NCBI GenBank assembly: GCA_034687125.1
Contig: JAQGBZ010000196.1
Coordinates: 54,138 to 118,137, forward strand
DNA length: 64,000 bases
Direction: 5' to 3'
Source: Neelides folsomi
Taxonomy: Eukaryota > Arthropoda > Collembola > Neelipleona > Neelidae
Part shown: positions 5,633-35,003 of the stretch, piece after piece
Position numbering within the stretch: the first letter of the stretch is position 1
Layout: each line of letters begins with the position of its first letter
Translations under genes and position numbers: made by a program
Notes under the pieces: model-generated
Seen by the model: the letters and a program-made list of their open reading frames with translations, nothing else
Databases searched by the model: none
Told to the model about the DNA's origin: nothing

Positions 5633-8600
5633 TTATTGCTTATCATTATTGTTCGCTCCTCCATTGTTGTTCTCGTGACAGTGGATGCAGTGAGAGCAGA
5701 GCGAGCAATTCCCCAGCAGCTTCGCCACGACCGATTTGAACTTCAGGGCTGGCCCCAACTTCATGTTCATGTTCGTCATGAGATGATCCTCCGTGAGTAA
5801 AGGAAGACTCGAACCGTCGATCGACTGATCTTTGAACGCCTATAAATTGATAAACATCACTCAATCAATACAAAGCTATAACCTCAATCAACATAATAAG
5901 AAAATGATCTCATCTAATATACTTGAATAAAATTTCCTATAAGCTATAGTTTACTATTTACTCTCACAATAACAATAAGTAATAAATACCTATACTTATT
6001 GTGTACATAGATGTAAGGTGTAATATTAGGTATGTATTTATATTAATCGTCGTCGTTAGTTTCATTAAAGACACTTTTTCATAAGGACGAAAAAGCATTT
6101 AGATAAAGAAGCTTAAAGAATCACAAGATGTTAGGGATCATAATCCCAAGGTGTGACATTTGATGATCTCTTCTAAATTACTATAATTGAGATGATCGCA
6201 GGGGATTAGAGATTTGGACAAGAAGAGGACGAGACCAATTTGGCTAAGACCCTCCCACCAGAAGCTTGTAGAAGTTGAAAGAGATTTGACTCTCTCTCCT
6301 TCGCCTATCATCTCACCCCCAGGACTATCATTTGTCAGCCTCTCCTTGTCAAATGGAGGGCGAACAATGCGAAATTCAAAGAAGGAAGGAGACAAAAAGC
6401 AAAGCACAATGACTCCGTTCTGCTCTCAGATTCTCAAATTTTACTCCTTTGCCATAGACCATCATTTCATATGCCTTTTAGTCCAAACAGGTAAACCAAA
6501 GTTGTGCTTGTAAACTTTAAGCTTTTTCTTGACGTAAGGTAAGAATATCCAAACTTAAGAATGTACAGTAGATATAAAATAGGATATAATATAAAATGGC
6601 ATATAAAAGGACAGGATTGTAAAAAGTGTTTTTCCCTCGAGAATCTTCCTCATTTGAGGGGACAATGTTCGTTAAAAATAGGGGAAATTCACGTCTATGT
6701 CAAGACTCCGCGTGAGAGGCTCATGTAAAAGACGTTTAGTTCGGAGATTCATGTTGGGATGAGCACGTCAGGGAAGTGATCGTGTAATAGTGTGTAATCT
6801 CCTTCTCATTGAGCATAAATGATGGTCAACCAAAAGCCACAGCCACCAAAGAGAAAAAAACCTTTCTCGATACTTTTCTCGCTTCAATGAATAGATTGGC
6901 CAAATGAGAGAGCTTCTTTATAAATAAAATCTCATTGCCTATTGCAATTTCATACAAAATAATCCAACAATTTTCATCCGATGAAACTTTAATTCTCATG
7001 CAAAGAAAAGTATAATTTGAACTTTTAAAAAAATATTTCTCGGTTTTTGGGTATGGGAATCAATCTGTAATTGAAGTCAGAAATCTATCTACATAGGTAT
7101 GTATTATGTAGATGAGACAATGTAGGACTACCTGTATGTATGAATACTTTTATTTATTATTAGCTTGGGAAAGGAATTGGAAAAGAAAGATCATTTGAGT
7201 CATTAGGAGAAAAAAAGAAGATGAAAAATAGCCGTTGAGAGAAAAGATGTAAAAGAAATTACCTGAACATATTCCCTGCACAAGTCGATGGTCTGAACAA
7301 ATCTACAAACTTCTTCTACACTCCATGAGACCATGGACTGAGCCTCGGTGGAACATCCGGTGATGCAGGCAGAGACGCAATTTTTCTTTTTCTTTGTCGG
7401 ACTCGGAGAGGCGGAGAGGTCCAGGGGGCTGTTGGCTCTTTTCGCGCTCGTCTTAACGTAATTCTCTGCGATTTGATTCGACTGGGCAGATCGGACCATG
7501 GAGAGAAGTGTATTTGTCGAACTCATGTCTATCACCGGAAAAGGCATGTCTTTCTCGAGGTTCTTCTCAAAGGAGGAAATTAATAATGACGCTGCAGCGG
7601 CGGCTTCTCTTGCTCCGGGTTTAAGGAATCGGGAGTCAAAGTCAAGCATTCTTGAAGGATATCTGCAATGAAAAGATTTTTATTAAAATTCCATAAAAGT
7701 GTACTACTGCTACTAAATAATACCAATATAAACTAAAAACTACTAAAAATTACACTTTTAAAAAAGACTCATCTTTAACTAAACTTTCCTAGTTTAACTA
7801 AAATCTGCCTTTTCTCAAAATTGTTCCAAAATACTTGCATGTTTTACAAAAGATGTTCCTTTCTCCAGATAGAGCATTTTGTTAAATGACTCAAATATTG
7901 TCAAAAACTTAATACCTACCTATAAAAGTAGAACTACTGATTGTGAGTGAGTATACTTAAGTTTACTAAAAATACTTATCTGTACATATGTCTGTAATTA
8001 ACTAACATTAAGTTATTATAATTATTTATGTGCAATACAATATCTACAACTATGAACTTAAAGTCATAACGTCATATTTCAATTTTAGCGACTTAATCAT
8101 TATTAAATACATCATGTTTAATTGTCAATCAATTAAACATCCGCGACATTCAAAGATTGAATAAACAATAAATATGTGTGCCATGTGGATTTCTTTCGAA
8201 GTATTGACACTCAATTAAAGTTTTATTATTTCAGGTGCGGAGCAGAGTCAACAAAGAATAAATTAAAATCTTACTCGTTTGGGTTTGTGTGATTGTATTT
8301 AGCAGCGAGGTTTCTCATGAGGTCCGAGTAGTTCCTGGTCATCATGTGTTCCATCTGTTTCAAAGGCGGACTTGTGCTTGCACTCCGCTCTTCCGGACTC
8401 AGGCGCTCATTCTTCACAACCTCAGTCTGTTCGCGGTGTCTTTCGACAATCCTCTCAACGTGTTTGTTCTTTTTCCTTCCCATGCTCGGCTTCTTCACAG
8501 CGTCCTCTTGTCCATCAGGGTCAGCGGCGGCTGAAAGGACCAAAATTGTTTACATAACGTCCATTTAACCTCTCTCTATGTAGTTGGGGCTAGTTAGTTA

Positions 8601-11600
8601 TTTGCCCATTGGAATTCAGAGAAGATGTCAATATTGAAGACATGTAGCGTGTGAGAGGTCGCTTTACAACTCTTCTCCTTTACAACTCTCCTACTTAGCA
8701 AACCAGGGAAGATTGAAACAGGGAAGAAGTCCATTTGCATAACGACTTGTTGACCCCGACGTTGGGGCTCTGTGGCTAAAAAGGATGTGTTGAGATGGTT
8801 GAATGGAGTCCCTGCCACCCAACCTCATCATCTCCACGGCTCAAAGCGAGAAATTTTCCCATCCAAATTGGAGAGGATGAAAGTGGTAAAGGAGTCAGCA
8901 CTTCTTTTAAATCCTACCTGTATATATTTCTCCCCATATATTTCTAATATATATTTTTATATTTCCTATATCCGTATATCTATCTAGAGACCTTCAATAT
9001 CTCCACAATAATTTGGCAGTTTCTTTGTGTGTGGCTTAGTTTTTTTTCCCGAGTCCGAAGCGTGAAAATAGTTTCAGTAGCCGTCTGAAAACGAAGAATC
9101 TCATCGTTTTTTCTCATCCATCTGCCCTCGTTGGCTCTCTTTTCTCTCCTTCGTTTCTCTGAGAGGAGTCGAAGGAGCAGCGATGAAATGAAGATGACGA
9201 AGCGAAATTCCCTCTTTACATCTCCCGAGTCCAGATGCATGAATTTCTAAAGCCCCTTTTGATTCCTTTCAAATTGTGGAGACGCGAAGGCTCCAACCAA
9301 CCACTCATAATAATTTCAATCCAAATCCTCGTAAAGTTCCTCAAAAACCCCTCTCTCGGGTCCAACACGGCCAGAAGATCGGGAGGAAAATGGGGAAAGG
9401 ACATAAATCACCAACAGTTTCGGATCCTTAATTTGGGGGTGGTTGATGGTTCGGATCTTATGACTTTTATATTCTCCCGCCTCTCTCTCGTTCTTCTCAG
9501 GGAGTGCTTATTATCTTTCATTCACAACCCATGGGAGAAATTTTTGGACATATCCACCGAGGATATTTTTGTATGATAATTGGCCCGTCCCCTCCCCTCT
9601 TTTACTTATGCACGTCAATGAACGGAAGATCACGAATAATTGCTCCTTCCACTAATAAGCTCATTTGTAGGCCGAGACGCCGAGTTCGAGACTCCAGAAA
9701 AAGTTCATACTTTTAAAATACATACCTCAACTAATTCAAACCTCCAAAATAACGTCTCATAAGTCTCATTTGTCTCATACTCCTTATATTAAAAAAATGA
9801 TCCCAACACACGTTTTGAGAATGTATGAGAAGTTTGGTTATTTATTTGGAAATTCTTGCCACCCTCGAATCCCATTTCTCCCCTTGGTAGATTCTTTACG
9901 GCTCACGGCCTCAAATTGCATTAATACACAAGTTGTAGTTAATTACAACCATCTCGGCCTGACTTCTGATTAAGAAATTATTAAGGAAGTTGCCTTACAT
10001 CCGTAGCACCAACTTGGCCACACAACCGGCGAACATGAATCCAACTCGGTCATTTTATTCAACATGCATGAGGATCTTGAGTCTCTTGAGAACTCAGTTA
10101 GTTAATCCTTGTCAGATTGCTCAATTTATTACTATTTTTATAAATCGGTTAATTTCACACCTTTAACACTGTCCACTTTTTAATTACTTTTTAATTAAAT
10201 TCAAATAATTGGTTTAAATTAGTAATAGTATCTTAATGATTGGAGGTATACAGGTTAATAGGAGAAAATTTGATTTTTTTGAAAATGTTAGTAAAATTTT
10301 GTGAGAACCGGGGGGAATGAAGCACAGGTATGATCAGGTAGTTTGTATTGTGGAATAGGGAACACAAGGGCCCACTCAACCTGAAGTCAATCGAGGAACT
10401 GAAGTCGAACCAGGAGCTGCTGAAAGATGCATTGGGTACCTGTGAGCCCAAGGGGATTTTGCTGCTCCTCTTTTCAACCCGGAGGATTCCACCTTTACCC
10501 AACTCATCCCAGCTTCAGGGAATCTGAGGGAACAGATGGATCATTTCCTATGCATAAGACACAATCTTCGTTCAAACTCTTCCAGATCTCCCGTTCATTA
10601 ATAGGAGTGAAGTGAAAAAGGCAGCCCTTTCGTGAGTTCCTTCTCATCACTAATTCCTCCCCTAACTCTTTTCTTACAGTTTCCCTCACTTTCAAACTCA
10701 AATTATGAAAGATTTAAACAAAAAAATCGCCCATGCCTCACCCGATCGTAAATGAAGCTTTTGAACCCCGCGCAACTGAGCACGGATTTAAGATATACTA
10801 ATTTAAGCTACATAAAATTCTCTAAAGATGCTCAAAAGCTCAAATTGATCCAACCCATTTTATAATACTCAATTTTCCTATATGTAAAAGCACAACCTTA
10901 TAATGTACATAGAAACTCTCTTAGGTATATTGTTTGTCCTTATAGGGTTATGTATTTCATCCAATATAAGACAAGTAGTAGTCTATATGGAACATGTAAT
11001 ATAGTTAACTACATATGGTAATGAAGGAGTAACGATGGATAAAAGAGACGTCTTAACCGTCGTCGCATTCCAAAATCAAGACGATCATTGAACTCGGAAT
11101 ATTACAAGAAAAATTATCACCTATTTAAGTTCTGCCAAGCGGAAACTTCCGGTTATCACCACCACCTGTTGTTAATAGGAATTTCGAACATTTTTATTCC
11201 TCATCATCCTCCTTTGACTCTCCTCGCACACGCTGCAAACTCCACCGGAGTAAATTGAGCTAAATGAAGGAGAAGACCCTTCGGTTCCTCTTGGTGGACG
11301 CGGACAGAAGACACGGAGAACAATCTTTCAAAGTGAAGCGCGATAAAAACTTGGAACGATAAACTCATAAAAAGAAACGTCTCTCGCTTTTGCTAATTTC
11401 AATACTCCGCCAGTTGCCTTCGCCAGTTGCTTCACTAACTCCTTCTTTTTAAAAGACAAGTGAATTCTTATAGACCTTTTTTATTAACTCTACAAGACTT
11501 CCACATACTTCCTATGTCCGATATTGGAGCATTTAAATAAATTGACTGTTCTTCCGTATATTCTCTCCTTGTTATAACCTTTTAAGACTGATTGACAAAA

Positions 11601-14600
11601 AGCTTCTTGAAGAATGAATTGCATATAACTGCACACACACATTTAATATATTTTTCCATGGTGTAGATGTGTTCAGATTGTGCCGCGCGAGGTAACAACT
11701 TGAGAGTTTTCTCGGGATCTCTTAATAGTTAAATCTAACAATTCACCACTCTCTTACTTTATCCAATTTGAAGTTGTAAAAAACACAATTTCAAGAAAAT
11801 ACCTGAGAGTTATTTATGTGCAAATGCAGTTAGATAATTATGTCCTATTTAATACAACATTAAAGAGCCGAATCAATTTATCAATAATCTTAATCAAATT
11901 AAATTTTTAGTTTAATTTTTAGATACTTTACCTCCAAAGGGTATTTATTATACAAACTTTCAAAAATAATGAAGCTTTAAAAAGAATTATCAATGAGTTG
12001 AAGAAATTACATGGGTTTTTAGAGTTTTGAACAAGATATTCAATAAAGAATCTTAAGCCATTCTTTGTGCCATGCCTGTGAAGTATTAAAAGTTCACCCA
12101 TCTTCTCACCATCATTACTTCGAGATCGTGAAAAATAGTAGGGGATCTCTAACAAGAGATATTCCAGATCTGTCTCTCGTAGCTTTCTAATTCCATTGTC
12201 CTCTGCACCATGTGAAACATCAATGAAACATGATTGAAAATCCTCAATTGAGATTCAATCCTCGTTTTAAGCCCAAACCATTCTAGAACTATTCAATCAA
12301 TCCTTTTAATAGTTTCCTATAAGTGAGGGAAAGTTCAATAAATACAGTAGTCAATTTCTTTCATGAATTGGTACAAATGCTACTTGTTGCTCCCTTAAAT
12401 GAAATAAAAATATTTAAAACACTTAAATTAAATGAAAAGATAAATATTCTACCATACATACGCCTACTTAAACGAATTTGATTTATCAGAATTTAGAACT
12501 GATTCAACTGATATTAGAAATCCTTACCCGTATAGATATTTAAATAATTTTTATATATTTTGTTTGGAACTTTTTTTGACCAAATGTTGAATGGTGTTTG
12601 GAAAGCACGGGAAAAACACTCGATTTAAACCATGACCAAACGGATATTATTTCACACAATTTAAGCATTTACATAAAAATGGGTTCGGAGTTTATATGAA
12701 AGCCCCTGTGGGTTTGGGTTTGACAAAAGCCTCCTCCATTTGTCTTTGTTTGAATGAGAAGGAGGTGGGAATTTTGAGCCGAGAAAGCTCCCTCACGAAA
12801 TGCCCACTTCCTGTCCGGAGATGCACTTTGACTACCTCGAAGGTCGGTGAAGATTCACTAAATACTCACACAGGTAAAAACAGAGAAGCTGAATGAAGGA
12901 TTCCACGTTTCCTGCACGCTCACCTTCTTTCCGTCTCTCCAGGTTGTTGTGCTTCCTCACATATAATACAATACATACAAACTACAACTAACCCTTACTA
13001 CTTATATCTACCTACTTATCCTTATGGCTATATAAAAATAATCTGTAGTTATAATTTCTACATTATATAATATGACAAATACATCATACAGATGCATGTA
13101 AATGGTAGACGACGGAGAATATGTGAATGTACAGTATATGAATAATATGAGGGATATGTAAAGAGAACAAAGAAGATGTGTATTGTTATATTGTGAGTAG
13201 TAAAAGTTGGTAAAAGATCCCCAAATTGCGTCGGCGAGAAGAGATAAGGTCACGGATGAACTCCGTCTCATCTCTCTCTCTGGAGAGAAGAATGGAAGGG
13301 TAAAGAAAAGAGAGGCAGTGAAGCATAGGGCATGGAACCTTCTCATGAACCGGAAGTCTGGTCACTTGCTCTTCTACCAAATAAGAGTCGTCCGATGTGT
13401 CGCCGCGGCCCTACGTGCCCAATATTTCCGCCCATCTCCGTAAATTTAAAGGGACCAAAAAAGCTAAACCCATCAATTATTCACCATCTCTTGTAAAATC
13501 ATCCTTCCTATTCTCTCATCATTCTCTCATCATCCCTCTCTCATGAGGACTCGAAGAAGGAGGAGGAGAAATGACAAGAACCATCCGGTACATCTAATGA
13601 GGATCCTATTGAATCTCCTCTATTAAACCCAAACTAACTGTAGCATCCTTAAATTATTGCTTTTAAGATCCTGATGGGAAACACTTGTTGGATTCTGTGG
13701 ATCTTTCACTGATGGATCTCTGAGGTCCTTTGAGATATTCACTGTTGTTGGACGTTGGTTTTAAACTAGGTAGGAAATCACGCCTCTTAAATGCTCTTGA
13801 GAATTGGAATGCCCTAGAAAACGGTTTGGGCTTGGTTTGGTGTGAGGAGAAGATGGGCGAGATATTCAAAGGAGTCATTCGGACAAATCGGACAGTGGAA
13901 ATCAATCAAAGCTTACCCTGCGGACTTCCGTCACTCGCCCCGTTCACGGCGCTCACCACACCTGCAATTAAAACCATTCGTCATTTGGAATTCATAACAT
14001 TGAGGAGACACAATGGTCGTCATAAGCTTCATCCTACATTCATCCAGCGAACAATTTGCTTCCATTTCTAAGTACTTGACCATTGTCATGATCAAAGTTC
14101 GATTCCAATTTAATGATATGGACCGTGTAATCCAATGACAAAATGCCAATGGGCAGATTCTAACATCCAATACCTTATATTGGTATTCTATACTCATATA
14201 AGAAAAGTATTTTAATATGAAATTCAAGATCTGAATGTTAGTATAATTCTTATGAATATAAATCTAATGCCATTGCCATTTATGAATATAAATTTCTGCA
14301 ATACGGCCCAATACATATTGCATATGAAGGTATGTTGAAAAGATCAGATAAAGACTTGTAATAAGATTGAGAGATATCGAAGGAAGCGCGCGTTGAGGTG
14401 AAATCGATTTGATTCTAATCACTTCACTTCTCAATCTTCTAATTACACGGCTGTTTAATAATTCCGAATGGACATTGTTTTATGTAGGATGGTTCCGGAC
14501 GCCGCCTGACCGGCGGCAGCCCCCCTCAAACCCATCGAATTCACACTACGCTAATATCTCAGACTTTGGTTCAGATCCCTCCAGGGACTTTTTCCTCTCC

Positions 14601-17600
14601 GGGCAGTAAAAGAAATGAGCGTATATTTCATAGCGGCCGACCCTTCGTCTCACTTTGGGAAGGAGTGCGAATGCAAAAGGAAAATGCCGGGACGAAAAAA
14701 TCCACTCATAAACAAAAGAACAAAAGATGAATGCAGCGAAAGAGTTATGCGTACGGGTCATCAGAAGTAATAAGCGCGTTGTCGTTCTTCTCTGACGGTA
14801 TGGTAATTACTACCTCGCCTCCCGACGATATAGACCGCCCAAAAAAATCCTTCTTTTTTTCACAAACACGAGCTATTTATTAGGCTTTTCTCCCCTTTAT
14901 CGCTACCTGAAGACTCCAGCTCAATTCCTTCGTCTTCCAAGGGACGGAGGCTTAATTTAATCACTTCTTTTCACTCACACTCCCAAGAGATCCTGATGAG
15001 CTTTATGTTAAATAAAAAGAGGAAATTTAAAAATTCCCATCATAAGAATTCAGAAGCCTTTTCAATATAATAATATGCTCCTTAGGTTTAAGCTATACTG
15101 GGTATTATTTTTAAGTTAATTAACGATGTATGTACCTTTAGAATATTACTTATACTATAATAAATAGGTAGAAGAAGGTTGCATTGTGAGCTCCTTCACT
15201 TTTTAAGCAAATACAATTATTAGAGATGTTGAGTCTTTGGAAATGGTTGAGAGGTTGTGGAGGCTACAAATAGAAACTCATAATTAAAAGAGGAATGTCT
15301 GTGTGCTGCCCGGGAGCGTCTGGCCAATGACCAGAGTCCTGGGGGTCAGGATGACCAGAGAGAGATTAATCAGCCGAGGTTTATTTTTGAGTTGATTGAT
15401 GAGCAGGGTTAAGGAGTAGGTGAACTGTTCCCGCTTTGTCCTCATACACAATTCCAAGAACAACAACTATAACAGACTTCAAATCATATTACATGTTGAA
15501 CACTCCAATACTCAAATATGCAATATTTGAATACAACTCCATGTAATAATATATGTGCAATTATGTGAATACATTCGTTGAATTCTTTTTGAGTGATGGA
15601 GCACATAAGCACATGGAAGAATTTTGCACGACCAGTTCAGTCTTAAGAAATTCATCCTTAAGAAATTTAACATGAAAAATTCATTAAGAAATTCATTTGG
15701 GAAAAATCCATGTTTAAAAAGTTCATTCTTACTTGAGTCACTTGAGTAAGATTTAGTCATTGAGTAATGTAACATGAAAGTGTAAAAGTACTTTTTACCC
15801 GGACTATTCAAACCATTCAGAGTTTTGAAACCAACAAGGGTTGAACAATTTGAAATTTTTAAGACAGTCGGGAGAACCTCATTGTTAGTTTCATTTAATA
15901 ATAGTGAGAAAAGTCGAGGAGGAGTTAAGACTCATCTGGGTAAGTAATTGGAGATTCATGAGAAGATTCATAAAATGTTTGTTTGGTTCATTCACTTATT
16001 TTCATTCATCCGCCGAGTTTCACCAGAAGATGAATTTGGTGACTTCAACTCGCCATCACGACAATTCCATTATCCTTTTTTCAAATTTCCCCACCATCTG
16101 TTGTGACACGGGAGGAGATTACCTCACACGAACCCTGAGATTACTTTTATTTAACAAAGGTCATTTATTCCCTCCCCTTGGGGAGTTCAAATCCCACATT
16201 CATTTATCCAGTTGGGGCTACTGGTAAACTGATGTTTTTTATAAGGAATATTTTATATCAGGGAAATATATATTTATATCATACGAATTTTTATTAAAGA
16301 AAATCTCTTTGGTTCATTTATTGAATCATGACGAATTTAAGCCTGGAACTGAAATGACTCGGAAATGCTAAGATGACTCGATGGGAATTTAATGAGGTTT
16401 TTCAAATCTCCTCTAAATGGATGATGATGAATAATCCCGGGTCACGACAGGGCTAAGGGAATGAATCGCGAGTTTGACGCGTCGCCTTGAAGATCAAGGC
16501 ATTTGGTTTGGATCCATTCAACCCCCGTCACAACTCTTTTTCAACCCAAGTCTCCTTAATCTTCTATTAGCTCATCAGCTACCTCATTCCTCATCCTCTC
16601 ACCGGACAATGAAAATCCCACCACTTGTTGAATGTCCATACAAATCCCTTTCCCATTCGTCTCATACTCCAAAGACTCTAAACCTTTCAAATACCGAAAG
16701 CTCCGAATACGCGTTTAGCCTTCAGTCCTCAGTTTCTTCAGCTTCTTCATCCGGATCCAAAGAAATCACCTGGGGAAGGTGCGCAAGGTTTATTATACAT
16801 ACGTCAAAGAAGTCTTTGGAGCGTCTTTGGAGACTTTTTATAATAAATGGTTGGGCTGAGTTTTTACCAAATCTTCGTTTTTTTAACTGACACGACGAAG
16901 AGAGATTTGACGGCGATGGTGACAGAGATTGTTCTGTATAATCAAATGGTTAATGGGTTGGGAAGAGCTTGGAGGGAGAAAAGGAGGTGAGGGTGACTCT
17001 GATGGGACGGGAGTTGTAGATAAAATGACGCAAAAAGATTCATCATCAATCTGCCGTGACATTCTAATCATTACTTCACAAATGTGGGACTTGAAAGACT
17101 TTTTCCCTCTCTGCCTCGTAGCAGACAATTCACAAAGTCAGACAAGTCCGTTTTTGAATAGAGTAGTAATACATTAGGATTATTTCGCAGCCCCGACACT
17201 TCATTTCTCACTGGACATCTCCGAAAGTAATTTGGTTGAGTGGAATTTCCCATATATCTTTATGAGCTTCTATTTATTAAAAAAGTGAATCGCTATATTA
17301 AATCTATTGCCTATTGTGTTTGCTCCATCATTAGGATCATTAAGGATACACATTCAACATATAGAAATATGGGATACCGGATACTGATAGAAATATAACA
17401 TAATAGTTCCATATAAGAACTGATGTGTATTGTATCGGAGTAGCGATTGATCTTCCGACCACTTGTTCCATACTGCTACATTGAATCTTTAAGGAACTTT
17501 GGTCAATTAAGGGGCTTTTGAGGCTTCACTGGGTGCTTTTTTATTTATTTGGGCTCATTCCGTCCGGTGGTGTAGGAATCCATTAAAGGTCATGAGTGGG

Positions 17601-20600
17601 CAGAGTCGTGAGGTGCTACTGGTCTGCCTGCTGTTCTTCACTCCCATACCATTGTCTGAACATCCCGGAGAATGAAACCCAGGGATGGGTTCGATCCACA
17701 AACATCGGCAATTGAGGAATGCGAGGAATAGGAAAAAACCAGTAGATCGACAGGTCAAAGGCTGCTTCATATTCCAGGGTGGGGCACGAAGTTCAAAGTC
17801 ACAATCTAGTTTGACTTGCTTCATTACTCTCCCCATCTTATTTACTCATTCAACCTCTTCCATTCCCACAGGCAGGTACCGAAACATCCTCGCAATATGG
17901 CCAATCCTCATTCTGCTCTAATTCAAAATTCCTCACGTTTTGAAGTCCGTAACTCTCGTGGTTCTCAACTTGGAGCTCAAGACGGAGTCGGAACAGCGGT
18001 ATAATGAGCCCTAATGAATTCCTCGGTTCATTACAACCTTCTGCACCTCAAACCTCCCTTATTCCATCTTAGGCCAAAGAGCCACTTTGACTCATGCCAC
18101 TTTAAGCCACAAAGCTATGTATAGTTCAAACCTCTCTCTTTTACAAGAACCTTCATATATCTGTAATATTCATAGTTAGGGTTAGTCAGTAGGAATTAAT
18201 ATAGAGCAATATTCAGAGAGCAATTTCTTTTTTAATATTACTTGTGAGATATTAGTAGGCTGAACATGGAGGTATTATAGGAAACCAGGTATATTTATTT
18301 TATTACAGATAGGAGTCATAATTGGAAGGTAAAGTGGTGGCCCGAAGGTGAAAGTAAAACAGCTCCGGTATCATTCCACCCCATCACCTTTATCTGCGGC
18401 AGGTCAATCAGAGCTCGCTCCAAGGTCACCTTCTTACTCAATTCACAGAAGCAAACGACGGTGCTAAACATTCACCACCATCAACTCTTAACCTTTCCTT
18501 GTATTAATAACAAAAGTTCACTTCGGAGAACCTCATATTACAACTTCATTTTCTCTTATTTATTATATTCAGTCAGTTCAATACTCAGTCAGCTTAAAGT
18601 ATACGGTTGAATACACAATTCTATGTATAATTTGCATTATTAGTTAGTTATATGAACGCGTACAATGGACAATGATGATGTAATATATGAATATGACGTA
18701 TGGACTTATATAAAATTCTTTTTTTGTATGTATTTATTCGAGATGGAAGTGGAGGGAATAAGTCTCCTTATTTGCGTCTGAAAAGATGAGAGAAGAATTG
18801 AGACGAATCTTTTGATTCTAAAGAGGTGTGACGGAATTTGAATATGATCCAAGGAGTTGGGTCACAAAGGGAATTTGTCGACTTGGCTCCAAGCACCTGT
18901 CATCACGCCTTTTTCTTCCATTGATGTGTCAATGGTGAGTTTATTAGCTTCGAGACCATTCATTTTCTTCCACTCCGCTTATGCTCCTATTATCAAACAG
19001 GGCTCTATTATGAGAGTCGGCGATCTCTTTTGCTCGCTCGACTCGTCCCATGCCAAAGCACTAACTTTGAAAGATTTAAGACGCCAGAGAGAGATTCAAA
19101 TGGAAAGGTGAAACTTTTGACATCCAACTCACCTCCTTCTTTTCCTGAGATGATAATCAGCCACAGTGACATGACATGCCATGACTCCAATTCTTTCGAG
19201 CACTTACCACGTCGAAGGCCAATAAAATAAATCCCTATCATTTGATCCAATTGGAATTGATATGTAAGTTACTCCTTTTTATTATCACACCTCTATTAAA
19301 TAATGCTCCACTCTGAGTCCTATGGTTCTCATAATGGTCTCTATCCTTGTTCCAATAGCAAAATTAAGCTCAAACGCCCGCTTCTATCAAAAGCCCCGTT
19401 CCAATTTAGATTTACAATTTTATCATATTTTTTCCAATCCCCTCAATTTCCAAAGATAAATCATAAGGAAAAGTAGAGTAGGAATATCAAAATTGGAATC
19501 ATAAATTATCCAATAAATTATTTAATAAATAATCTTATTATTGTTATTATGCAAATTGAGTTATCCCTTAAAAGTCTTCTTTATTTAGTTCCAATTTGTC
19601 CAATTCGGATTTGCCCAATTGGGAAGCTACAGAACAAGAACAAGTGGAATGAAAATAGGATGAGTGTAATAATCAGAACTTGTGTGTAGGTGTATTAACA
19701 GGGTTATCAGGGGGCTCAGGTGAGTGAAACCAATCGCTCATTGAAAGAGGGAAGATTAGATTGGATTCCAATTCGTTTCGCTCAGCTCCCCTTCTTCCTC
19801 TCATTCCATTATCATCATTATTATTATTATATAAAACCACTTGGGCCCAGAGACCTGACATGATGATGGCCAACGATTGTGACTTGTGACCTAGGAATTA
19901 CTCAACCCGAGGACATGCCCATGAGAACCTTCCAAAACTTCCTCGAGCTCATCCCAAGAATGTCCATCGTCACGATGGGACAGTCTAAATACGGCCTTAA
20001 TCTACACAGCAGCGGCTCCCCATCTTCACCCCTTTTCATCATCCCTTCCATTCCTTGATTCATTAAATTGCCCGTCTTTACAATGCTCCCCACAATGGTT
20101 TGTACAAAACCTCCTTGCCATGTTCCTTGCAATGGTCCAATGGGTTCCCTTAGGACCATTTCGTGATTGCCATTAGACGATTATGATTGTAATTGTGAAT
20201 GCCATTAGGAAAGGAGTCTTTTATTAGCAGGCCGTGGGGAATGTTGAATATTGAGAAAAGTCGTGGGCTCGGAGGAGACCACCAGGTTTAATTAGGATCT
20301 CATACGCCGCTATATGGCTCTATTCATTAAAGGAATGACGGGGCGAAAAGATGTTTCAAGCCGCCGTCGCCAAGGAAGGAGGAAACCGAAGGAATGCGGC
20401 GACGACACTCAACGACAGACCTTTGATTTCCCTCCTCTTCATTTCTCACCACTCATATAAATATACCTGGGATTTGGGAATTTGAGATCTGCCCACTCTG
20501 TCAATCTCTTCATTCCCAACCTCTAAGTTTATAAACGATATGGGAAGGTACAAGAAATAAGTTTAATGGATCTACGCGTCCAGATGATTAGAAATACACG

Positions 20601-23600
20601 AGATGAGGCTTAGTCGACCGGGAAGATCAAAATGGGAAATCTCACCTCCGAAAGATCGACTTATCAAGAGTTGATCAATGATGGACGTCAAGCGAGATTC
20701 ACGCTTTTCCAATTGCTCCGGACTCCGCCTGTGTCAAAGCATAGGAATGAATTAGGATCCCATTGTCATCCCCCTTTACAATCAAAAACTACACGCTATG
20801 GATTTACAAATTGTGTTCAAGGAACCATTAAGGAAAAATGGGAGGCTATTAAACAACATTTATTTCCCGACTACTGCTTTACTAACATGTTTTAACAACA
20901 AGTTTGCAAACAATTTGAATGATAACAATAACTTTACTAATGTATTGAAATGTTAAAAATCATAAAAAAACAATTTTACCTTTTAACGATAAATTAAGAA
21001 AAATTTAGGAAACATCACTATTTCTCAATGTTAGCACAAAAGATAAAAATCAATAAAGAAATTGAACAAAAAAATTAACAACCATCTTTAATCATCCTTT
21101 ATTTTTGTAATGTTTTTTCAACAAATCAAGGGGGAAACGACTATCAAAAGAGTAGTCCTTTTTGACTACACAGTATGCATACTATAAATATTGTTTATGT
21201 AGTATATGATATATTTAGTTATTTATTTGTGATTCAGAAGAGTTCATAAAAAGGGTTGTTGTATTGTGGTAATGATTTGTGTTCATGAATGTTTTGAAAT
21301 ACCTGCCGAACGACATTTGCGACTGTTGATGATGTTGGAAGTTGGGGGTTGAGCGAAGGAGCTCGGCATTCGACATCTTTCCAGACTTCCTAATGAGACC
21401 GTCGTCGTTGGTCTGAAAATGAGATCATATTAACTCTCAGCTCCTTTGTACCAACGCGGAGTTGAACTCCCAGACCCCTCAGAGCCTTCAAAAGCCAGAA
21501 TCCCGAATAGGTAATTCCGAGCGGCAAAAAAAGGACACAATGAGGAGAGAATTGGTTCCTTAGGCCAAGCGGAGGAGCCGAGTTAATGGGCGACTCTGGA
21601 TCTGATGGGAAGACGATGGATCTCTCAAGGTCTCCGCTTAATTACTCAAATTGATAATTCCCCGCCCTTGAACTCTTGATCCCCTCCGCCGCAAGGTGCG
21701 ACTTCATTAATCATAATTTTGGGTTCACATCCAGGGCTTTGAAGCAGCTACTGGGATTCCTCTCGCCCCATAATTGGAGTATTGTGTGGAGTCGTGTGGG
21801 CCTCTGCGTCCTTTGTCCCCTGCCCTCCCGATTCCCCTCAGGTGGAGTTTTCCATTGGGAGCTCCATTGGGAACTCCATGGGAGCGCATAGGGAGATCAC
21901 ACGAAGTACCGCTGAGATCTCCCTTAATACACCTCTCATGATTTCTTATTACACCTTACGATTATACATCCAATATACATAAACCCATACTTTTCATATA
22001 ACTCTTCATATAAATGCACATTTAATACACCTTTGAAATCTTTACACTTCTAACGCTCATTACACAGTGTATTAAAATTACAATATTAAAAGTTCGTGTG
22101 AAGAGGAGAACAGGTGAGCATAGAAGTAATGTAATATTTTATATATTGGAAACAGGTGAGGATTACAGTAGAAGTTAAAGGCGAAGACGGAAATCAATGT
22201 GTTATAAGATAAAGTTAAAAATAAGGTTGCTCCAATCACTACCACCAGAACCTTATTTATAAGCAAGTAATGTCAGGTGGACAAGGCGAGGGAAATAAGT
22301 TCAAGATCATTTGCTTCCAAAGGCGAGGTCGTTCCTTTTTAATCCAAAACCCAAGACTTACTTCCTTTTCTCATTCATTAGAACCATTCGGCTCCCTCGT
22401 CATTTTCCCATCGCTTCGACCTTTGAGAGATGAAGTGTTCCATTGAGCAGAGGTCAGAAGTCACTTTCCTTTCGGGAGGGGTTCAAGGGACAGGTGGCGA
22501 AAAAGGTAAATTGGTCCAAGATGAGAATCCCTTTTACAGAAGAAACTCATACATTGGACTAAGGGATTTTCTCTTTCTCATATTGTTTTAAACCCCCATT
22601 TGGACCTGCATTTGGGCGATAAAAAAGGTGAACTTACGGTGTGGTAATTTGAGGTGAAAAAGTGGAGACCGGCCCTTCTTCACTTCATTCACAATTTGAA
22701 GTATTGGGAATTACACACAAGTTGTAAGGAGAAGCGTAAAGCTCCTCAATGAGCCGGTGAAGGGTCTTAAAACCGGTTTTCTCTCAATTCCAAAATAATA
22801 AGACGATCTGCGGTTCTCCTCTTTTACAACTTCTATACAACAACAGCACACAAGAATCAATCTCTGTATATAAAGTCAAAGGGGTCTATGAGTTTTTTCT
22901 ACAAATGAACTGACCACTGTTTACAAACTCTTTTCTTTCACAAAACTTTAAGATTTAAGATTGTCTTCACTTTTTTGATCAAATTGCCTTTGGTTATAAT
23001 TTATAAATACAATTGCAAGATTGTGCACTATTATTATACTTAATGTTATGTATACAATATACAGTGTTATAGTGTATAAATAGATAACATAAAGGTATTT
23101 TAATATCTTATAATGTTTAAAGAGATAGAGTTGATATTAAAGGTCGTTTATGGCTATAGATATATGCATGTAAATATAAGCTTATTGGGTATAGTTAAGT
23201 AAGTATAAGCACTTTGGCACTCGAGCGGTACGACGATAAACAAAGGGAGCTTATTAAAGAAAAATTTTCAATTTCTTTTTAATGGCTCGCATGGTTCTTT
23301 ATTTCCCGAGAGTGGCAATGCTAAAAATAAGGAGGGAGATGAAAAATAATGAAGGGAGAATGGAACTTCACAGGTCGAGTGCGAAATAGAGAATGAGCAG
23401 AGAGGTGAATTGAAAGGGGAAAAAGCCTTGAGTTGTACTTACCTGTCATTGATGATGTGATAAGGTCGAGGTTCGTGGAAGCCTTCTAACAACCCAACTA
23501 ATAATAAAGAGACACACACTCGTCACGAGGTCTCACATTTAAATCGGACCTTTAGGTTCCCCATTGTTAAACCAAGAACTTCACTCCCACATCCTCCCAA

Positions 23601-25028
23601 AAGAACATAAACCCACGATGCATTAAAAACCATATACCAACAAATATAATTGAGAATTTTACTTTTGCCCTATTGGTAATGAATTTACTTAATTTTAAAG
23701 GTGAGAAAAAATTACTGGGATCTTACAATGCAAATTCCATAATGTACACACATATTTATTCCATATACCTACAATGAAATGTTAAGGTTGTTGTAATGGG
23801 AAGAAATGTTTAAATTACACGATTTACTTAATTTGCTTACTTAATTTTCCAATTATCGAATTAGAATGTGAATAATTGAATGATAGGAAAGGTTAGAATT
23901 AAATGAACATGTGAACTATGAACCGTGAAAATCAAATATGATTCCATATTGGCAAACACAAGCGAGCAAACACAATTTTCATATCAGTAAGAGACAGTAG
24001 AGATAAAGTCATAAATGGTTTAAATATTATTAAATCTTTAAGAACCGAGTTACCTTTCTCATTGTCAGTGGTTTAGCAAGTTGGAAACTGAATAATTTTA
24101 AACCCAATCAGGGAGAAATGTTAGTATTAATAGAACAATTATTATCATTTACGTTATCTTTGTGTATTTATTATATTAGTAGATACATAATGCGTGCATC
24201 GTCAATGTTAAACAATACATAATTTGACTCTGTGACAAAGGTTTTGGAGTTTGAGTATTCGAGTTTTGCATTATAAAGTTTGTAATCCAAAAATTATATT
24301 CAAAATTCAGTATTTCTAGATAATTAGGCATTGAGAGAAGTTCTTTGAAACTCACCTTGTTTGTTCCACATTCGCATATCGGAGAATGGACAGTGATAAT
24401 TCCTTTATTAATCAGCAATTTGATGCTTTTCCCACTATGCCTAATTAAAAGTAGTAGGTTATTAATAGCTTTACTCTTATTGTAATTGCAAAGCTTTAAA
24501 GTCCATTCAATACTTGAAATTATTTGTTTTTAATTAAATAAACTGATTAAATATTAATAGATAATCTTAATATTTGAATAAATAATATTTTATTTTTCCA
24601 TTACCTTATGCTTCGTTTCCAATCTTTGGCAGTTTCCCTTCCACTAATGAATTGAAATTCATTCGGAGTGAGCCAATTTCTGTAATGTAATATACATTGC
24701 CCTCTCGAACCTTGGCACAATTTGGACAAATAAAGCAATCTAAAACCAAAAAATAATCCAAATTAAAAAATGAGATAAAATGGTGAAAAACTGTCAAAAG
24801 GACAAAATTATTCACTGACCCTTTATTACATCCACACTCAATTTCCAGCACTAATTGTTTCTCTTTGGTGAAGAGCGGATAAATGTATCTCTCATTAGCG
24901 GCTTTAACGAAATGTTCGCTCACGTTACATTCTCTTGGGGAAAAGTCCCTTTGGAAAATGTCTTGAAAGAATAAAGAAATTTGATCTCCTTTCGACTTTT
25001 TTCGTTTCTTCTCATTTATTTTCATCAT
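5633..25028 (-). CDS. SAND- and SAM-domain transcriptional regulator
   Basis: Exons in order of translation: 25028-24820, 24739-24605, 24440-24356, 23485-23443, 13961-13917, 8530-8275, 7662-7263 and 5839-5633. This gives 459 residues with every phase matching. Exons 1-3 encode a SAND domain (about residues 62-143), with NWLTPNEFQF and GRETAKDWKRSIR; SAND domains of DEAF-1/GMEB type bind DNA through KDWK. Exon 7 carries PLDLS (337-341), a CtBP-docking motif, then TKKKK. The SAM domain (371 to about 435) starts at WSVEEVCRFV and continues in the last exon with LPLLTEDHLM and MKLGPALKF, closest to polyhomeotic/SAMD11-type SAM domains that self-associate. A Cys/His-rich tail follows (CSLCSHCIHCH). 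A further exon at 21303-21412 is coding-like but does not join in phase by the same sites. The start is the first ATG after an in-frame stop; an upstream exon remains possible. Likely a nuclear chromatin or transcription factor. Confidence 0.8.
5840..7262 (-). other. Last intron of the SAND-SAM gene
   Basis: 1.4-kb intron that splits the SAM domain. It contains moderately GC-rich blocks near 6.2-6.8 kb. I see no exon joining in phase and no repeat worth naming. Confidence 0.5.
8531..13916 (-). other. 5.4-kb intron of the SAND-SAM gene
   Basis: No supported coding exon on either strand. Patches near 9.0-9.7, 10.3-10.7 and 11.0-11.4 kb are richer in G+C than the surrounding DNA and could be conserved regulatory DNA or decayed repeats. 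Open frames here lack domain signatures and in-phase splice partners. Confidence 0.45.
13962..21302 (-). other. 7.3-kb intron region of the SAND-SAM gene
   Basis: No gene recognised. GC-richer blocks lie near 14.5-15.0, 15.3, 16.4-16.9, 17.5-18.0, 18.8-19.2, 19.9-20.4 and 20.5-20.9 kb. An interrupted ATT repeat lies near 19.81-19.83 kb. The 138-codon frame at 16474 is serine-rich without a recognisable domain, and I do not accept it as a gene. Confidence 0.45.
21303..21412 (-). CDS. Candidate alternative exon of the SAND-SAM gene
   Basis: A 110-nt stretch with a strong acceptor (TTTTCAG) and donor (CAG/GTATTT) on the minus strand. One frame reads TNDDGLIRKSGKMSNAELL and then a His/Gln-rich end, and it follows SAND exon 3 (24356) exactly in phase 0. 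It leaves phase 2, which does not fit the main acceptor of the exon at 13961. It would fit a second AG ten bases downstream, giving SAVNGASDG. It therefore looks like an alternative to the 43-nt exon at 23485-23443, which itself fits in phase. Neither choice is proven. Confidence 0.5.
21413..23442 (-). other. Intron between candidate exons of the SAND-SAM gene
   Basis: Mostly AT-rich with GC-richer blocks near 21.5-21.9 and 22.3-22.8 kb. No exon, RNA gene or clear repeat was seen. Confidence 0.4.
23486..24355 (-). other. Intron between SAND exon 3 and the 43-nt exon
   Basis: 870 bp of AT-rich DNA with no supported feature. Confidence 0.45.
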
Positions 25029-26329: not shown

Positions 26330-28267
26330 ATGTTTTTGAAAATATTTACAATATTTATTATGACACAACTACGAACTTTATATTCATTTCCGAATATTTT
26401 TATTGATCAAACAATGCTGAATTATAAATTATTTATTAAAAGTGATACTTTTTGCAAAATATTAATTAATTTTCAAAACATCGTGATTATTGATGAAGAA
26501 AATATTGGAATCAATATTGAAGAAATTTCATTACAAAATTCTCCTATTCGTTTATTAATTTCCAATAAAAATGATTCGAAAGTGAGCAAACCTTTGAATA
26601 CTATCAATAAAATAAGCGGGCATTCAACCCTCGTAATTGTCCCATGCAAAAAATTTACACAATCTTTGGACAATTTATTAAATAATATTTTTTCTAAACG
26701 TGAAAATCCCACTTTGAGAAAAGATGAAGATTCATTTTTATTTATTTTTAATAAACAAATTGCAGATGATTTTTTACCGCTAAGCTCTTTGAATATAAAA
26801 TATCAGATATTTTTTAATTTCGAATCAAAAGAATTTTCAAGTATTTGTTATTATTGTGCCAATAGATCGTCGAATTTAGTCAAGATCACAGTTAATAAAA
26901 TTATCAATGATCAAAAACTGTTTCCAGACTTTGAAAATTTTTATGGAAAAATAATAATTGTTTCGGTTCCTATTAGAATAATTTGGGGCGTTGAAATTGG
27001 AATTATTAATCAAAAATGGGTGCCTAAACGTGGGCAGTATATAGCTTTATTGTACGAAATGGAAAAAATATTTAATTTCACTCTTGATGTTATGCCTGGT
27101 TCCAATGGAGGAGGTTCTGGACTTTTCAAAAATGGAACTTGGAATGGCGCCCTTGGTGATATTTCTTACAAAAGAGCACATCTTGCGGCCATTATTGCAC
27201 AAATTCAAATTCGCCGTCGCCATTTTAGTTTTTCAGCGCCAATTTCATATTGCCAACTTACATTTACTACAAACACTCCGAAACAAATTTTCACTTGGAC
27301 TTCTTTATTTTGGCCATTTTCAATCGAAGTATGGCTTGGAACAATTTTATCAATAATTGCTACAATATTTACTTTTTCCATTTTCAAATTAATTTTTACT
27401 TATGCCAAACGAAATGACAATATTAAACCAAATAATTCCAAAGTTGATATAATAATTGAAAACTCTTTTGACGTATTTGCATTATACATGGAACAAGGGC
27501 TGAGAACACCTCCAAGAGAAAATTCATGGAAAATATATTTTTGTATATTTTTATTTTTTGTTCTCATAATTAACACTGGATATAAATCAAAACTAGTCAC
27601 ATTTTTAGCATTTCCTCAAGTTGAACTTCCACCTTTGACTTTTACAGAGCTTGTGAATTCAGAATTTAAATGGGGACTAGAAGGTGCGTCAATTGGTGGG
27701 GCATTTATAGATAATTTAAAAAATACTTCTTCTTCAACCTATATAAAACTGAGAAAAGGAATGACAATTGTGAAAGAAACAATTCCATGCATTTTGAAAT
27801 CAGTGAATGAAAAGTTTGGATGTATTTTATTCAAATCGATGGCTGAATATATCGGATATAAAAATTTTACCCAGCAGTTTATTAAGAAGAATTTAGCTAT
27901 TGCACCGACATCTACATTTTTTATTCCTGTGGGATGGGCCATGGAAAAGAGAGCTGTTTTTAGAAGCAATTTTGATAGAGTTATTCATGCTTCTACTGAT
28001 ACGGGATTGTTGAATAAATGGGAAATTGACGATTATAATGAATTGAAAAGAAAACGGATTAAATGGGAAAACAAAGAAAATTTAACTTCGCAGCATTTAG
28101 ATTTTGAAACCGACGAACCACAAAAGCTTGCATTAAAAAATTTTAAAGGACCATTTTTACTATTGATATTTGGATATATTTTGGCAAGTTTTTATTTTAT
28201 TTATCAAAAAATTGAAAAAACTTTATTTTTGAATGTAAAAATTTCGAAATTTAAAATTTTATTATAA
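26330..28267 (+). CDS. Divergent ionotropic receptor (IR), chemosensory
   Basis: Single open frame of 645 residues without introns. The layout is that of an arthropod ionotropic receptor derived from ionotropic glutamate receptors: hydrophobic start (MFLKIFTIFIM), a divergent extracellular N-terminal region, then a split ligand-binding domain (S1 from about residue 212, with VPIRIIWGVEIG). A first membrane segment lies near 320-360 (WPFSIEVWLGTILSIIATIF), then a pore region with WKIYFCIFLFFVLIINTGY. S2 follows, with a final membrane segment near 615-638 (PFLLLIFGYILASFYFIYQ). Canonical glutamate-binding residues are not obvious, as expected for tuned, divergent IRs. IRs form cation channels with IR25a/IR8a-type co-receptors. 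Lack of introns fits lineage-specific, retro-duplicated divergent IR clades. The neighbouring gustatory receptor is another chemoreceptor but shows no sign of shared regulation. Confidence 0.85.
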   Translation: MFLKIFTIFIMTQLRTLYSFPNIFIDQTMLNYKLFIKSDTFCKILINFQNIVIIDEENIGINIEEISLQNSPIRLLISNKNDSKVSKPLNTINKISGHSTLVIVPCKKFTQSLDNLLNNIFSKRENPTLRKDEDSFLFIFNKQIADDFLPLSSLNIKYQIFFNFESKEFSSICYYCANRSSNLVKITVNKIINDQKLFPDFENFYGKIIIVSVPIRIIWGVEIGIINQKWVPKRGQYIALLYEMEKIFNFTLDVMPGSNGGGSGLFKNGTWNGALGDISYKRAHLAAIIAQIQIRRRHFSFSAPISYCQLTFTTNTPKQIFTWTSLFWPFSIEVWLGTILSIIATIFTFSIFKLIFTYAKRNDNIKPNNSKVDIIIENSFDVFALYMEQGLRTPPRENSWKIYFCIFLFFVLIINTGYKSKLVTFLAFPQVELPPLTFTELVNSEFKWGLEGASIGGAFIDNLKNTSSSTYIKLRKGMTIVKETIPCILKSVNEKFGCILFKSMAEYIGYKNFTQQFIKKNLAIAPTSTFFIPVGWAMEKRAVFRSNFDRVIHASTDTGLLNKWEIDDYNELKRKRIKWENKENLTSQHLDFETDEPQKLALKNFKGPFLLLIFGYILASFYFIYQKIEKTLFLNVKISKFKILL

Positions 28268-30816: not shown

Positions 30817-31181
30817 AATTCCAATTCCATTTACCATCACAATTTCAAATATATTAATTTCCGATTGATTTCAGTATGGGATAAGTCTTATTACATAATA
30901 TGTATTTAATTTTCATTGTTTAATTTCTTTACATGATTTTTCCAGCCCAATATTGATAAAATAAAAGGTCATTGAGAATCATTCATAATCAATTTACATT
31001 GGCCTACAATTTGTATCAACTGTGGCTAAACTCTTTTAGTTAACAATAGAAAAAAAATGTATAGACATTAATGTAATGTATTATTACAATGTAGCATAAT
31101 AAATAAATGTTAGATATAATATATGTGAGTAGTAAATAAAAATCCTAAAATGATTTATCGCTATCTTATTTCGACGTTTCA
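30817..31181. other. Short spacer before the subtilase
   Basis: 365 bp of AT-rich intergenic DNA between two plus-strand genes. No motif or gene recognised. Confidence 0.5.
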
Positions 31182-31259
31182 ATGAAAATCATATTGCTCC
31201 TAAATAATCTAATTATTATAAATATTGAATACTTTCTATCATTCAATAAGACAATCGAA

Positions 31260-32642
31260 ATGAAATTAATTTCATTACAGTTTGTATTTTTTCTTATTGA
31301 TTTTTCCCATTCTACTGAAAATTCTATTTTTCCTCACAAGATTGATTTGAATCTGATAAACAAATTAAAAAATCAAGAGAACGCAAATTTAATCATCTCA
31401 TTTGGGTCTATTGAATCGATTCTACACAAAATCAACAATCAAAATTATTACACACGCGAAGACCGCCTCAATAATTTATATAATTCTTTAACGAACCACG
31501 CTCAAGATTCTCAAGAAAACGTAATTCGAAACCTCCAACGCGAGAATTTAAAATTTAAATCATTTTGGGTCACTAATCAAATATTCATTAAAAATGCCAA
31601 TTTGTCAACAATCTCCTTCCTGGAACAATTTACAGAAATCATTTCCATTGCAGAAGAAATTGTATTTCCAAGTGCATCAAAATCTCACAAATTAATTCAA
31701 AATGTCAAACGGTCAATAAATGCCGAATGGGGAGTTGAGAACGTTGACGCTCCTCAAGCATGGGCTCTGGGATTCAAAGGTCAAGGAGTCAAAGTTGGAA
31801 TAATTGACACAGGAATCAGATGGACTCATGAAGGCTTTAAAAACAAAATGGCCAACGGTTATTATTGGTTCGATCCTACAACGCTAAATCCTGTTCCTTA
31901 TGACGACACCGGATTCGGAACTCATTCAACGGGAGTTATTGTCGGATCTCCCAATATGGGCGTCGCCCCTGAAGCAAAATACATTTCCTGTTTGGGATGT
32001 CCAGAAGGAGCTTGCAGTCAAAGTAATTTAATTGCATGTGGTCAGTTCATAACATGTCCGCATGATACAAATGGCGCAAATCCAAATTGTGCTCAAGCGC
32101 CCGATATAGTCTCAAATGGATGGTTGAACGAAAGAGGCCAAACATGGTATAATGACGTCATTGATACATGGCGTGTCGCAGGAATTCTCCCAATATTTTC
32201 TGTTGGGAATAATGGACCTGCATGTGGAACTGTTAACTCTCCGGGGGACAATTTAAAAGTTATTGGAGTTGGCGCCATTCCTCAAGCTAATAACGTTTTC
32301 CCGCCTTCCTCCAGAGGGCCGTCATCTTTTGGCGGAGTTATTAAACCTGATTTTGTTGCTCCGGGATTAAACGTCGTTTCGGCTTCGCATACTTCAGACA
32401 ATGCTTATGCGACTTATTCGGGGACATCGTTGGCTGCTGCGCACTTGACCGGAGTAGTGGCCATTTTAAAATCGAAGAATTTAACAAGTGATTATTTTAC
32501 TATTTTGAATGCAATGAGAGCTGGAGCTGGATTTGTGACATCAACAGGACAAGATTGTGGTGGAATTGATGATGAAAAATTACCAAATAATAATATTGGA
32601 GCTGGAAGAGTTTCCGCTTTAAAGTCCCTTGATCACGTTTAA
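31260..32642 (+). CDS. Secreted subtilisin-like serine protease (S8), intronless
   Basis: Open frame of 460 residues from the ATG at 31260, chosen because it begins with a clean signal peptide (MKLISLQFVFFLIDFSHS). An in-frame ATG at 31182 would add 26 residues. A propeptide runs to about residue 151, where KR precedes the catalytic domain. The full triad is visible: Asp183 in GIIDTGIRWTHEGF, His222 in GFGTHSTGVIVG and Ser390 in SGTSLAAAHLTG. The oxyanion Asn317 lies in SVGNNGP. The frame reads WGVENVDAPQAWALGFKGQG before the Asp motif, as in bacterial bacillopeptidase-F-type enzymes. Several extra cysteines (about residues 244-277) suggest disulfides. There are no introns, unlike most neighbours with 3-12 exons. 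Possible horizontal acquisition is discussed in the findings. Likely role: extracellular or digestive proteolysis. Confidence 0.9.
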   Translation: MKLISLQFVFFLIDFSHSTENSIFPHKIDLNLINKLKNQENANLIISFGSIESILHKINNQNYYTREDRLNNLYNSLTNHAQDSQENVIRNLQRENLKFKSFWVTNQIFIKNANLSTISFLEQFTEIISIAEEIVFPSASKSHKLIQNVKRSINAEWGVENVDAPQAWALGFKGQGVKVGIIDTGIRWTHEGFKNKMANGYYWFDPTTLNPVPYDDTGFGTHSTGVIVGSPNMGVAPEAKYISCLGCPEGACSQSNLIACGQFITCPHDTNGANPNCAQAPDIVSNGWLNERGQTWYNDVIDTWRVAGILPIFSVGNNGPACGTVNSPGDNLKVIGVGAIPQANNVFPPSSRGPSSFGGVIKPDFVAPGLNVVSASHTSDNAYATYSGTSLAAAHLTGVVAILKSKNLTSDYFTILNAMRAGAGFVTSTGQDCGGIDDEKLPNNNIGAGRVSALKSLDHV

Positions 32643-32791: not shown

Positions 32792-35003
32792 TTAATATCG
32801 ATTTACAAGTACGACCGAATATGGGTGAGTTTTGAGAGTAAATGTCACTTTGGGATTTAAAGTTGGTTTTTCTCCTTCAGCAAATATCGTATTAAATGTA
32901 GAATAAATTCCCATTATGAATAAAAACAAAGAATCTCTTGCAAGGTTTTCTCCAAAACAAGCGCGTTTTCCTGAAGAGAAAGAAAGCAAATTGTCGACTT
33001 TTTTCATACAAGTTCCATCTTCGTTGATGAAGCGTTCAGGGCGGAAATTCTCTGGGTCTCCCCAAATCTTCTCATCATGATGAACTCCATAAACATTTGA
33101 CACTAAACCCCAACCCTTTTTTATTTTGAATCCTTTAAATTGAACGTCTTTAGTTGCTGCGTGCATCACTCCATTTGGAAATATTGTAGATTTTCGAAGA
33201 ACTTCCAAAATTAATGCTTCAGTATAAGGCATCCTTTAATTAAATATTTAAAAATCCTTTAAAAATATTATAATAACACAATTTATGAATTATTTTGTAG
33301 TTAATAATTAGATACTTAATTTATTAGAACAAACACAGATATAAAATGTTAAAAATAAAATGTTGAAATAAAATCAAATTCAATTACATTGGTCTGTCTG
33401 AAAGAGCGGGTCTTCTTGATTTCCCCACAACGGTATCAATTTCAATTTGTAATTTTACTTGTATTTCGGTATAATGAGTTAAATATAAAATTGCCCAACT
33501 TAAAGTAGAAGTTGTTGTGTCAGAACCAGCAGCAAATAAATCTAAATGAAAGAATTGTTAATAAAATAATATTAAATTCATAAAAATATCAGTAAATTCA
33601 TTTTAATTTAGTTATTTTTAAATAAATATTATACGAACCCATTACGACCCCTATGAGTGTTTTTTCTGAAATTCAAAATATTAATTATAATCTTCAAATC
33701 ACAGTTAATTTATTCTATTTTAATGGGATATTAGAAAAACTACTTCCTTCTTCTTTATAAAAAGATGAATTTGGATTGGTGGTTTTCTTAATTTCTTTTA
33801 TATAAGAGTCAATAAAATCTCTGGGAACTTCGCTTTCCTCTTCTTTGTATTTCTCCCAATGTTCTTCGATAGGCCTTTCGATTGTATTTCGAAGGAAGTC
33901 GACAAAAGTGAGATATTTTCTCCAGCCAGTTAAACCAGGAGCAATTTTGGTCAACGAAGGCCAAAACATTGCAATTGGATTGATTTCGTTTAAAGCTCTG
34001 AAAAAATTAAATTTACAATTCTAATTTATTAAAATAATGAATATTTAAAAATTAAAATAAATTAAAATATATGATTCACTTTTCAAATCCGATGAACATT
34101 TCGTTTAAAAGCGGATTTGAATGAGAAAATCTCTCTCCGGTCACAATGAACCAAATGGAATTTAAAATTGCAAAATTAAATCTCTCGTCTAAATTTAAAG
34201 GTTCTCCCACTTTGCTCTTGCAATATTCAATGAATTCATTGACTTCTTCCATGATAATTGTTTCCATTGTGTGTTTGCCAAATCCGAAATCTCGCAATTG
34301 CCTTAAAGTAAATCTTCTCTGTTCATTCCAATGGGTTCCTTCGGCCATTAAAACTCCTCGTTTTCCTCCTCTTAAAACATTAATTGCTTCGAAATTTGGA
34401 CGACCGCACAATTCAGGAATATTAAATGCTTCTTTAATTGAGTCCAAGTCATTCAACATAATTATACTAAATTAAAAAACCAAACAAATAGACTAAATTA
34501 ATGTAAATGTATGTATGTATAAAATATTATAAAATATTTACTTTATTTATTGCTTACTTGAGCGATATTATTTTATATCTAAATATATTTCCATATTTAT
34601 TTGCCCACTCACAGCAACGAATGTGAGGATTGATTCCAAGTTGGAAAATATTTCCGATAATTGGAAAAGGATATGGTCCTATAAAACATAATAAGTAAAC
34701 ATTGCATTTTGTAATATTCATATGTTATTATATTATTTTTAATATACCAATATAATATTTTATCGAGGATCAAGATTTTGAATTCAAATAAATATACTTT
34801 AAAACTAAATTTATTTGATATTATTGATTATAAAATAACAATCTTATTTTAAATAAATATTGCTATTTGAAAATAAATGTAAAATAATTATTTAAACCTG
34901 GGATTTTCTGTGAATTTGTATTATTAAATTTTCTATACCAGATATAGGCAAACAAAGTTAATATTGCCAATAATAAATATTTTAAGTAATTAATGTCAAT
35001 CAT
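32792..35003 (-). CDS. Cytochrome P450, CYP2 clan
   Basis: Seven exons in translation order: 35003-34898, 34678-34558, 34466-34080, 33997-33744, 33665-33639 (27 nt), 33541-33388 and 33233-32792. All join in phase to 496 residues, a normal microsomal P450 length. An N-terminal membrane anchor (about residues 6-23) is followed by the proline-rich hinge PGPYPFPIIGN. Later come the I-helix AGSDTT (303-308), ExxR at 360-363, the PERF motif and the haem loop FSSGKRACFGENLAR with the haem-ligating Cys442. The enzyme would be an NADPH-cytochrome-P450-reductase-dependent monooxygenase of the endoplasmic reticulum. The sequence style is CYP2 clan, which in arthropods includes hormone-synthesis and detoxification members, and I cannot say which. 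The donors at 34897 (GTTTAA) and 33743 (GTAGTT) are weak but are fixed by phase. Confidence 0.93.

Follow-up and report, generated by a model that had tools for sequence, protein, structure and literature searches.

Human SAMD11 carries an N-terminal SAND domain and a C-terminal SAM domain (PMC11450717), and the protein has been placed in a SAND cluster (IPR000770) (PMC10376189); full-length SAMD11 is thus known to combine the two domains. According to a study on the human retina, the SAND domain is absent from all SAMD11 isoforms detected there but one, and a novel retinal isoform is described without the N-terminal SAND domain and with the C-terminal SAM domain kept (PMC11450717). In two other papers, SAMD11 is said to have no obvious DNA-binding domain (PMC1435744, PMC5062157). 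The mouse protein, mr-s, represses a reporter and self-associates mainly via its SAM domain, and its repressive activity maps to the 80 aa tail past the SAM domain, SAM alone being non-repressing (PMC1435744). The partners given for mouse Samd11 are Samd11 itself, Samd7 and Phc2, and it has been proposed to be a PRC1 component (PMC7892874).

When we searched the literature for an arthropod SAMD11 (arthropod; Drosophila and SAND; insect), no title among the matches listed fitted, and protein databases may well hold such orthologues. A literature search joining SAND domain, SAM domain and Polycomb found nothing, as did a literature text search for peptide strings of the SAND domain described here, and two papers naming both the SAND domain and the sterile alpha motif treat them apart.

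Structure of the gene

The gene was read from the minus strand between positions 26300 and 5000 of the window, by which we mean the whole 64,000-nt stretch of Neelides folsomi DNA that was analysed. Nine exons, running from 25028 down to 5633, join to 1530 nt, corresponding to 509 aa and a stop codon (Table 1), and this model exactly reproduces the span that an initial annotation had given for a large minus-strand gene. The same annotation had counted nine exons, eight of them joined in phase, and a translation of 459 residues; its number of exons stands, whereas in our model the introns are GT-AG and the phases fit at all eight junctions, and the protein is extended to 509 aa. The gene looks intact, and an in-frame TGA begins 12 nt 5' of the first ATG in exon 1.

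The frame used is the sole stop-free frame in eight of the nine exons (the terminal stop aside), exon 4 having two open frames. Codon scores, trained on seven ORFs of the window, were positive for the used frame in 8/9 exons and slightly negative in exon 9. Because an alternative frame scored higher than the used one in three of the nine exons (2, 4 and 9), codon use alone is not decisive for the frames. Further small exons may lie hidden in three introns, 2.9, 6.7 and 5.4 kb long, and the 5' end is a predicted one. With the protein as query, the genome (75.1 Mb in 840 contigs) gave nine matches, eight of them inside the gene and one in another SAND gene, on contig C2, with 40% identity; no second copy of the gene was seen in this search of the genome contigs. 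Just past the SAND part there is an in-frame methionine at residue 156 (window 21374-21376, minus strand, exon 4), which judging from its position could start a SAND-less isoform like the human retinal ones.

Table 1. Exons, domains and motif of the gene, in positions of the window.
Feature	Position	Strand	Content	Basis
Exon 1, 209 nt	24820..25028	-	start codon, N-terminus rich in lysine, beginning of SAND	
Exon 2, 135 nt	24605..24739	-	SAND core with KDWK	Pfam SAND match on genome
Exon 3, 85 nt	24356..24440	-	SAND end and CxC motif	
Exon 4, 110 nt	21303..21412	-	linker	splice sites and phase alone
Exon 5, 83 nt	20646..20728	-	linker	splice sites and phase alone
Exon 6, 45 nt	13917..13961	-	linker	splice sites and phase alone
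Exon 7, 256 nt	8275..8530	-	charged linker	
Exon 8, 400 nt	7263..7662	-	linker, PLDLS, lysine run, first part of SAM	
Exon 9, 207 nt	5633..5839	-	remainder of SAM, short Cys/His and Asn-rich tail, stop codon	
SAND domain, residues 57-129	24398..24860	-	exons 1-3	Pfam, mapped by hand through exons
SAM domain, residues 419-482	5717..7331	-	exons 8 and 9	Pfam, mapped by hand through exons
PLDLS, residues 387-391	7413..7427	-	CtBP-type motif	mapped by hand

Elsewhere in the window, at 26330-28267, one uninterrupted frame of 645 aa contains a ligand-gated ion channel domain (Lig_chan, 6.6e-14) and is read by us as ionotropic-receptor-like. Next come a 497 aa frame at 31149-32642, which contains a Peptidase_S8 domain (4.7e-35) of the subtilisin-like proteases, and cytochrome P450 exons at 32792-34471 (minus strand). 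Threonine/proline-rich repeats (PPTEPPTKPPT) at 43089-45345 are found close to a CBM_14 (peritrophin-type) chitin-binding domain, and a MULE transposase domain (3.3e-13) at 62980-63360; neither the Rfam nor the tRNA scan of the window gave a match. The four 4 kb bins over window positions 8001-24000, which are mostly introns of the gene, have a GC content of 37-39% vs. 28-34% in the other twelve bins, and regulatory elements are one possible reason for GC-richer intron bins in a compact genome of 75 Mb. In the genome at large there were 39 Chitin_bind_4 matches and a COX1 frame without stops when read with the invertebrate mitochondrial code, which together with the Lig_chan, P450 and peritrophin-type matches of the window point to an arthropod; a search for odorant receptors (7tm_6) gave three weak matches (25 to 36 bits), too few and faint to bear on this.

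Domains and motif of the protein

The domain search that had been proposed earlier was run on the 509 aa translation, and Pfam SAND, SAM_2 and SAM_1 all matched. The SAND domain, which is N-terminal and contains KDWK, was found at 3e-24 (84.9 bits, cut-off 22), and the SAM domain towards the C-terminus was matched by SAM_2 over residues 419-471 (7.8e-11; 42.4 bits, cut-off 20.5) and by SAM_1 within residues 419 to 482 (1.8e-9), with about 25 aa of protein remaining after it; two further SAM relatives in the scan were weak and below their own cut-offs. The arrangement is the one that the initial annotation had read, SAND (KDWK) at the N-terminus and SAM at the C-terminus, and the PLDLS it had pointed out is likewise present, occurring once in the protein. 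PxDLS is a CtBP-binding motif; when the protein was shuffled 20000 times, 1.3% of the shuffled sequences contained PxDL[ST]. The FCS zinc finger, a polyhomeotic feature, was not found in the protein, and with E values up to 1 the Pfam scan matched no families other than SAND and SAM.

Among the 46 PDB chains matched by the SAM domain, the nearest are Ph (1.2e-13) and PHC3 (8.2e-13), and the solved structures nearest to the SAND domain are an SP100-like nuclear protein (1ufn), SP100 and GMEB1. A search for SAND relatives among viral contigs and among the genomes of bacteria and archaea gave 15 and 166 pattern matches, none of which was confirmed, as expected since this is an animal gene.

A pseudogene was considered as an alternative. 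The frames are open and the splice sites intact across nine exons, however, and both domains score well over their cut-offs, so that we regard a pseudogene as having a negligible probability.

Relationship to SAMD11

For human SAMD11 we used provisional sequences of the 681 aa form and of the SAND stretch of the longer form. In four checks (length, K45, R168 and R630) the provisional 681 aa sequence is consistent with PMC5062157. The SAM domain is identical to the SAM of this form at 36/69 positions, as compared to 31/63 for fly Ph, 26/54 for PHC3 and 26/59 for L3MBTL3; the SAMs of the same genome gave 23/64 (Scm-like), 22/66 (PHD-SAM) and 19/60 (L(3)mbt-like), and two outgroup SAMs align over just 25 and 11 residues. 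The SAND domain is identical at 55/79 positions to that of the longer form of human SAMD11, for which the provisional sequence lacks the four checks, at 32/79 (41%) to the other SAND of the genome on contig C2, and at 30/71, 26/66, 25/78 and 25/71 (32-42%) to four SANDs from the PDB.

In a SAND tree with seven rows, including four of the five PDB chains matched (the one left out nearly duplicates another), the domain pairs with provisional human SAMD11 (95/97), with one of the four inner branches starred and three open. The SAM tree has ten rows, among them three of five PDB chains drawn from the 46 matched (the other two are near-identical variants) and five SAMs from this genome, chosen among 25 + 20 matches and further places. 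Here again the domain pairs with provisional human SAMD11 (87/86), one of seven inner branches being starred and four open. A SAM phylogeny that would include SAMD7 had been suggested earlier, and of this the placement beside SAMD11 was obtained, SAMD7 being absent from the tree. On the rows used, which are few, lack SAMD7 and include the provisional human sequences, both domains are nearest to SAMD11. Outside SAND and SAM, the linker gave no match to provisional human SAMD11. Residues 1-15 of the provisional 681 aa sequence can be aligned with the end of the SAND domain here (9/15 identical), and judged by this alignment the reference 681 aa SAMD11 seems to begin inside SAND. That would account for the absence of a DNA-binding domain in earlier descriptions.

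Two domains may come together in a gene model by mistake, and exons 1-3 could belong to a short SAND protein and exons 4-9 to an adjacent gene for a SAM protein. Consistent with such a division, a 2.9 kb intron separates exons 3 and 4, the 4 kb bin above 24 kb has a GC content of 29%, the four bins between 8 and 24 kb one of 37-39%, exon 4 contains an in-frame methionine, and SAND-less transcripts are described for human SAMD11 (PMC11450717). However, the GT donor of exon 3 and the AG acceptor of exon 4 are both in phase 0, and SAND and SAM share one human protein (PMC11450717), to which each of the two domains is closest. Wrongly joined neighbours are in our view very unlikely.

Alternatively, a SAND gene could have been fused in this lineage to a polyhomeotic-type SAM gene, independently of SAMD11. 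Ph and PHC3 are the best solved relatives of the SAM domain, as such a fusion would have it, and the human comparison depends on a provisional sequence, but each domain is separately nearest to this human SAMD11. An independent fusion would not give that pattern and is therefore disfavoured; we consider it very unlikely.

Polyhomeotic and other SAM genes in the genome

The SAMs of fly Ph and PHC3, used as genome queries, each led to four places, namely this gene, a PHD-SAM gene (contig C325), an L(3)mbt-like gene (C154) and a place on C260. This gene was the best match with the PHC3 query and second to the PHD-SAM gene with the Ph query, and no separate Ph SAM was seen in these searches. A search of the genome for zf-FCS_1, made without an animal positive control, gave no match. 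A Scm-like SAM on contig C221, which it shares with MBT matches, is split over three exons and was caught only by direct tblastn of that stretch; as the Ph and PHC3 searches missed it, a Ph gene could have been missed alike. On contig C325, a Ph-type SAM split by an intron lies next to exon pieces in which a Cys/His stretch looks PHD-like by eye. Possibly, a separate polyhomeotic was lost in this lineage and the SAMD11 orthologue has become its chief SAM protein of the Ph type, with the SAND domain directly targeting PRC1 to DNA, but we consider this scenario very unlikely.

Proposed function

Taken together, we hold it very probable that the gene is an arthropod orthologue of SAMD11 (mr-s), with a product that is most likely a nuclear repressor. 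The gene model, the domain content and the family placement are the part of this reading that the analysis shows. By analogy with the family we infer DNA binding, SAM self-association, PRC1 association and repression. The KDWK SAND domain would contact DNA, and the Ph-type SAM, through contacts with itself and with other SAM proteins, would link the protein to Polycomb complexes. PLDLS may in addition recruit CtBP, a binding that we can only guess from the motif. Since the tail of the arthropod protein is short, repression, if any, would more likely proceed by Polycomb via the SAM domain, or by CtBP, than by a tail of the vertebrate kind. The genome has four matches to RAWUL, a domain found in PRC1 RING proteins, three of them over the cut-off.

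Comparison with known systems

GMEB1, SP100, SP140 and the SAND protein on contig C2 resemble the protein in having a SAND domain with KDWK or a close variant, but the identity is just 32-42%, and to our knowledge none of them has a SAM of this kind. Polyhomeotic and the PHC proteins are the best relatives of the SAM domain among solved structures, although their SAM identity is below that of SAMD11, and we know of no SAND domain in Ph. Vertebrate SAMD7 has a SAM domain 69% identical to that of Samd11 (PMC7892874) and is described with an isolated SAM domain (PMC3615016), unlike the combination of SAND and SAM found here.

With vertebrate SAMD11 (mr-s) the protein shares the N-terminal SAND domain and the C-terminal Ph-like SAM domain, and the suggestion of the initial annotation that SAMD11-type vertebrate proteins have the closest architecture is borne out by the human protein (PMC11450717). 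The protein is shorter (509 aa), however, and has no match beyond the domains, and PLDLS is by eye absent from the provisional human sequence. For the 80 aa repressive tail of mr-s, as it is described in PMC1435744, there is no clear counterpart here, as no match was found past the SAM domain. A Trp and a Gly that are 49 residues apart, like W404 and G453 of the mouse protein (PMC1435744), are also present in this SAM domain, and we read them as corresponding to these two residues. As the combination of SAND and SAM was already known in SAMD11, the gene adds an arthropod member to a known architecture. The presence of both domains in one arthropod gene model suggests that a SAND-bearing SAMD11 is ancestral and predates the split between arthropods and vertebrates, and that the SAND-less forms of the retina are derived.
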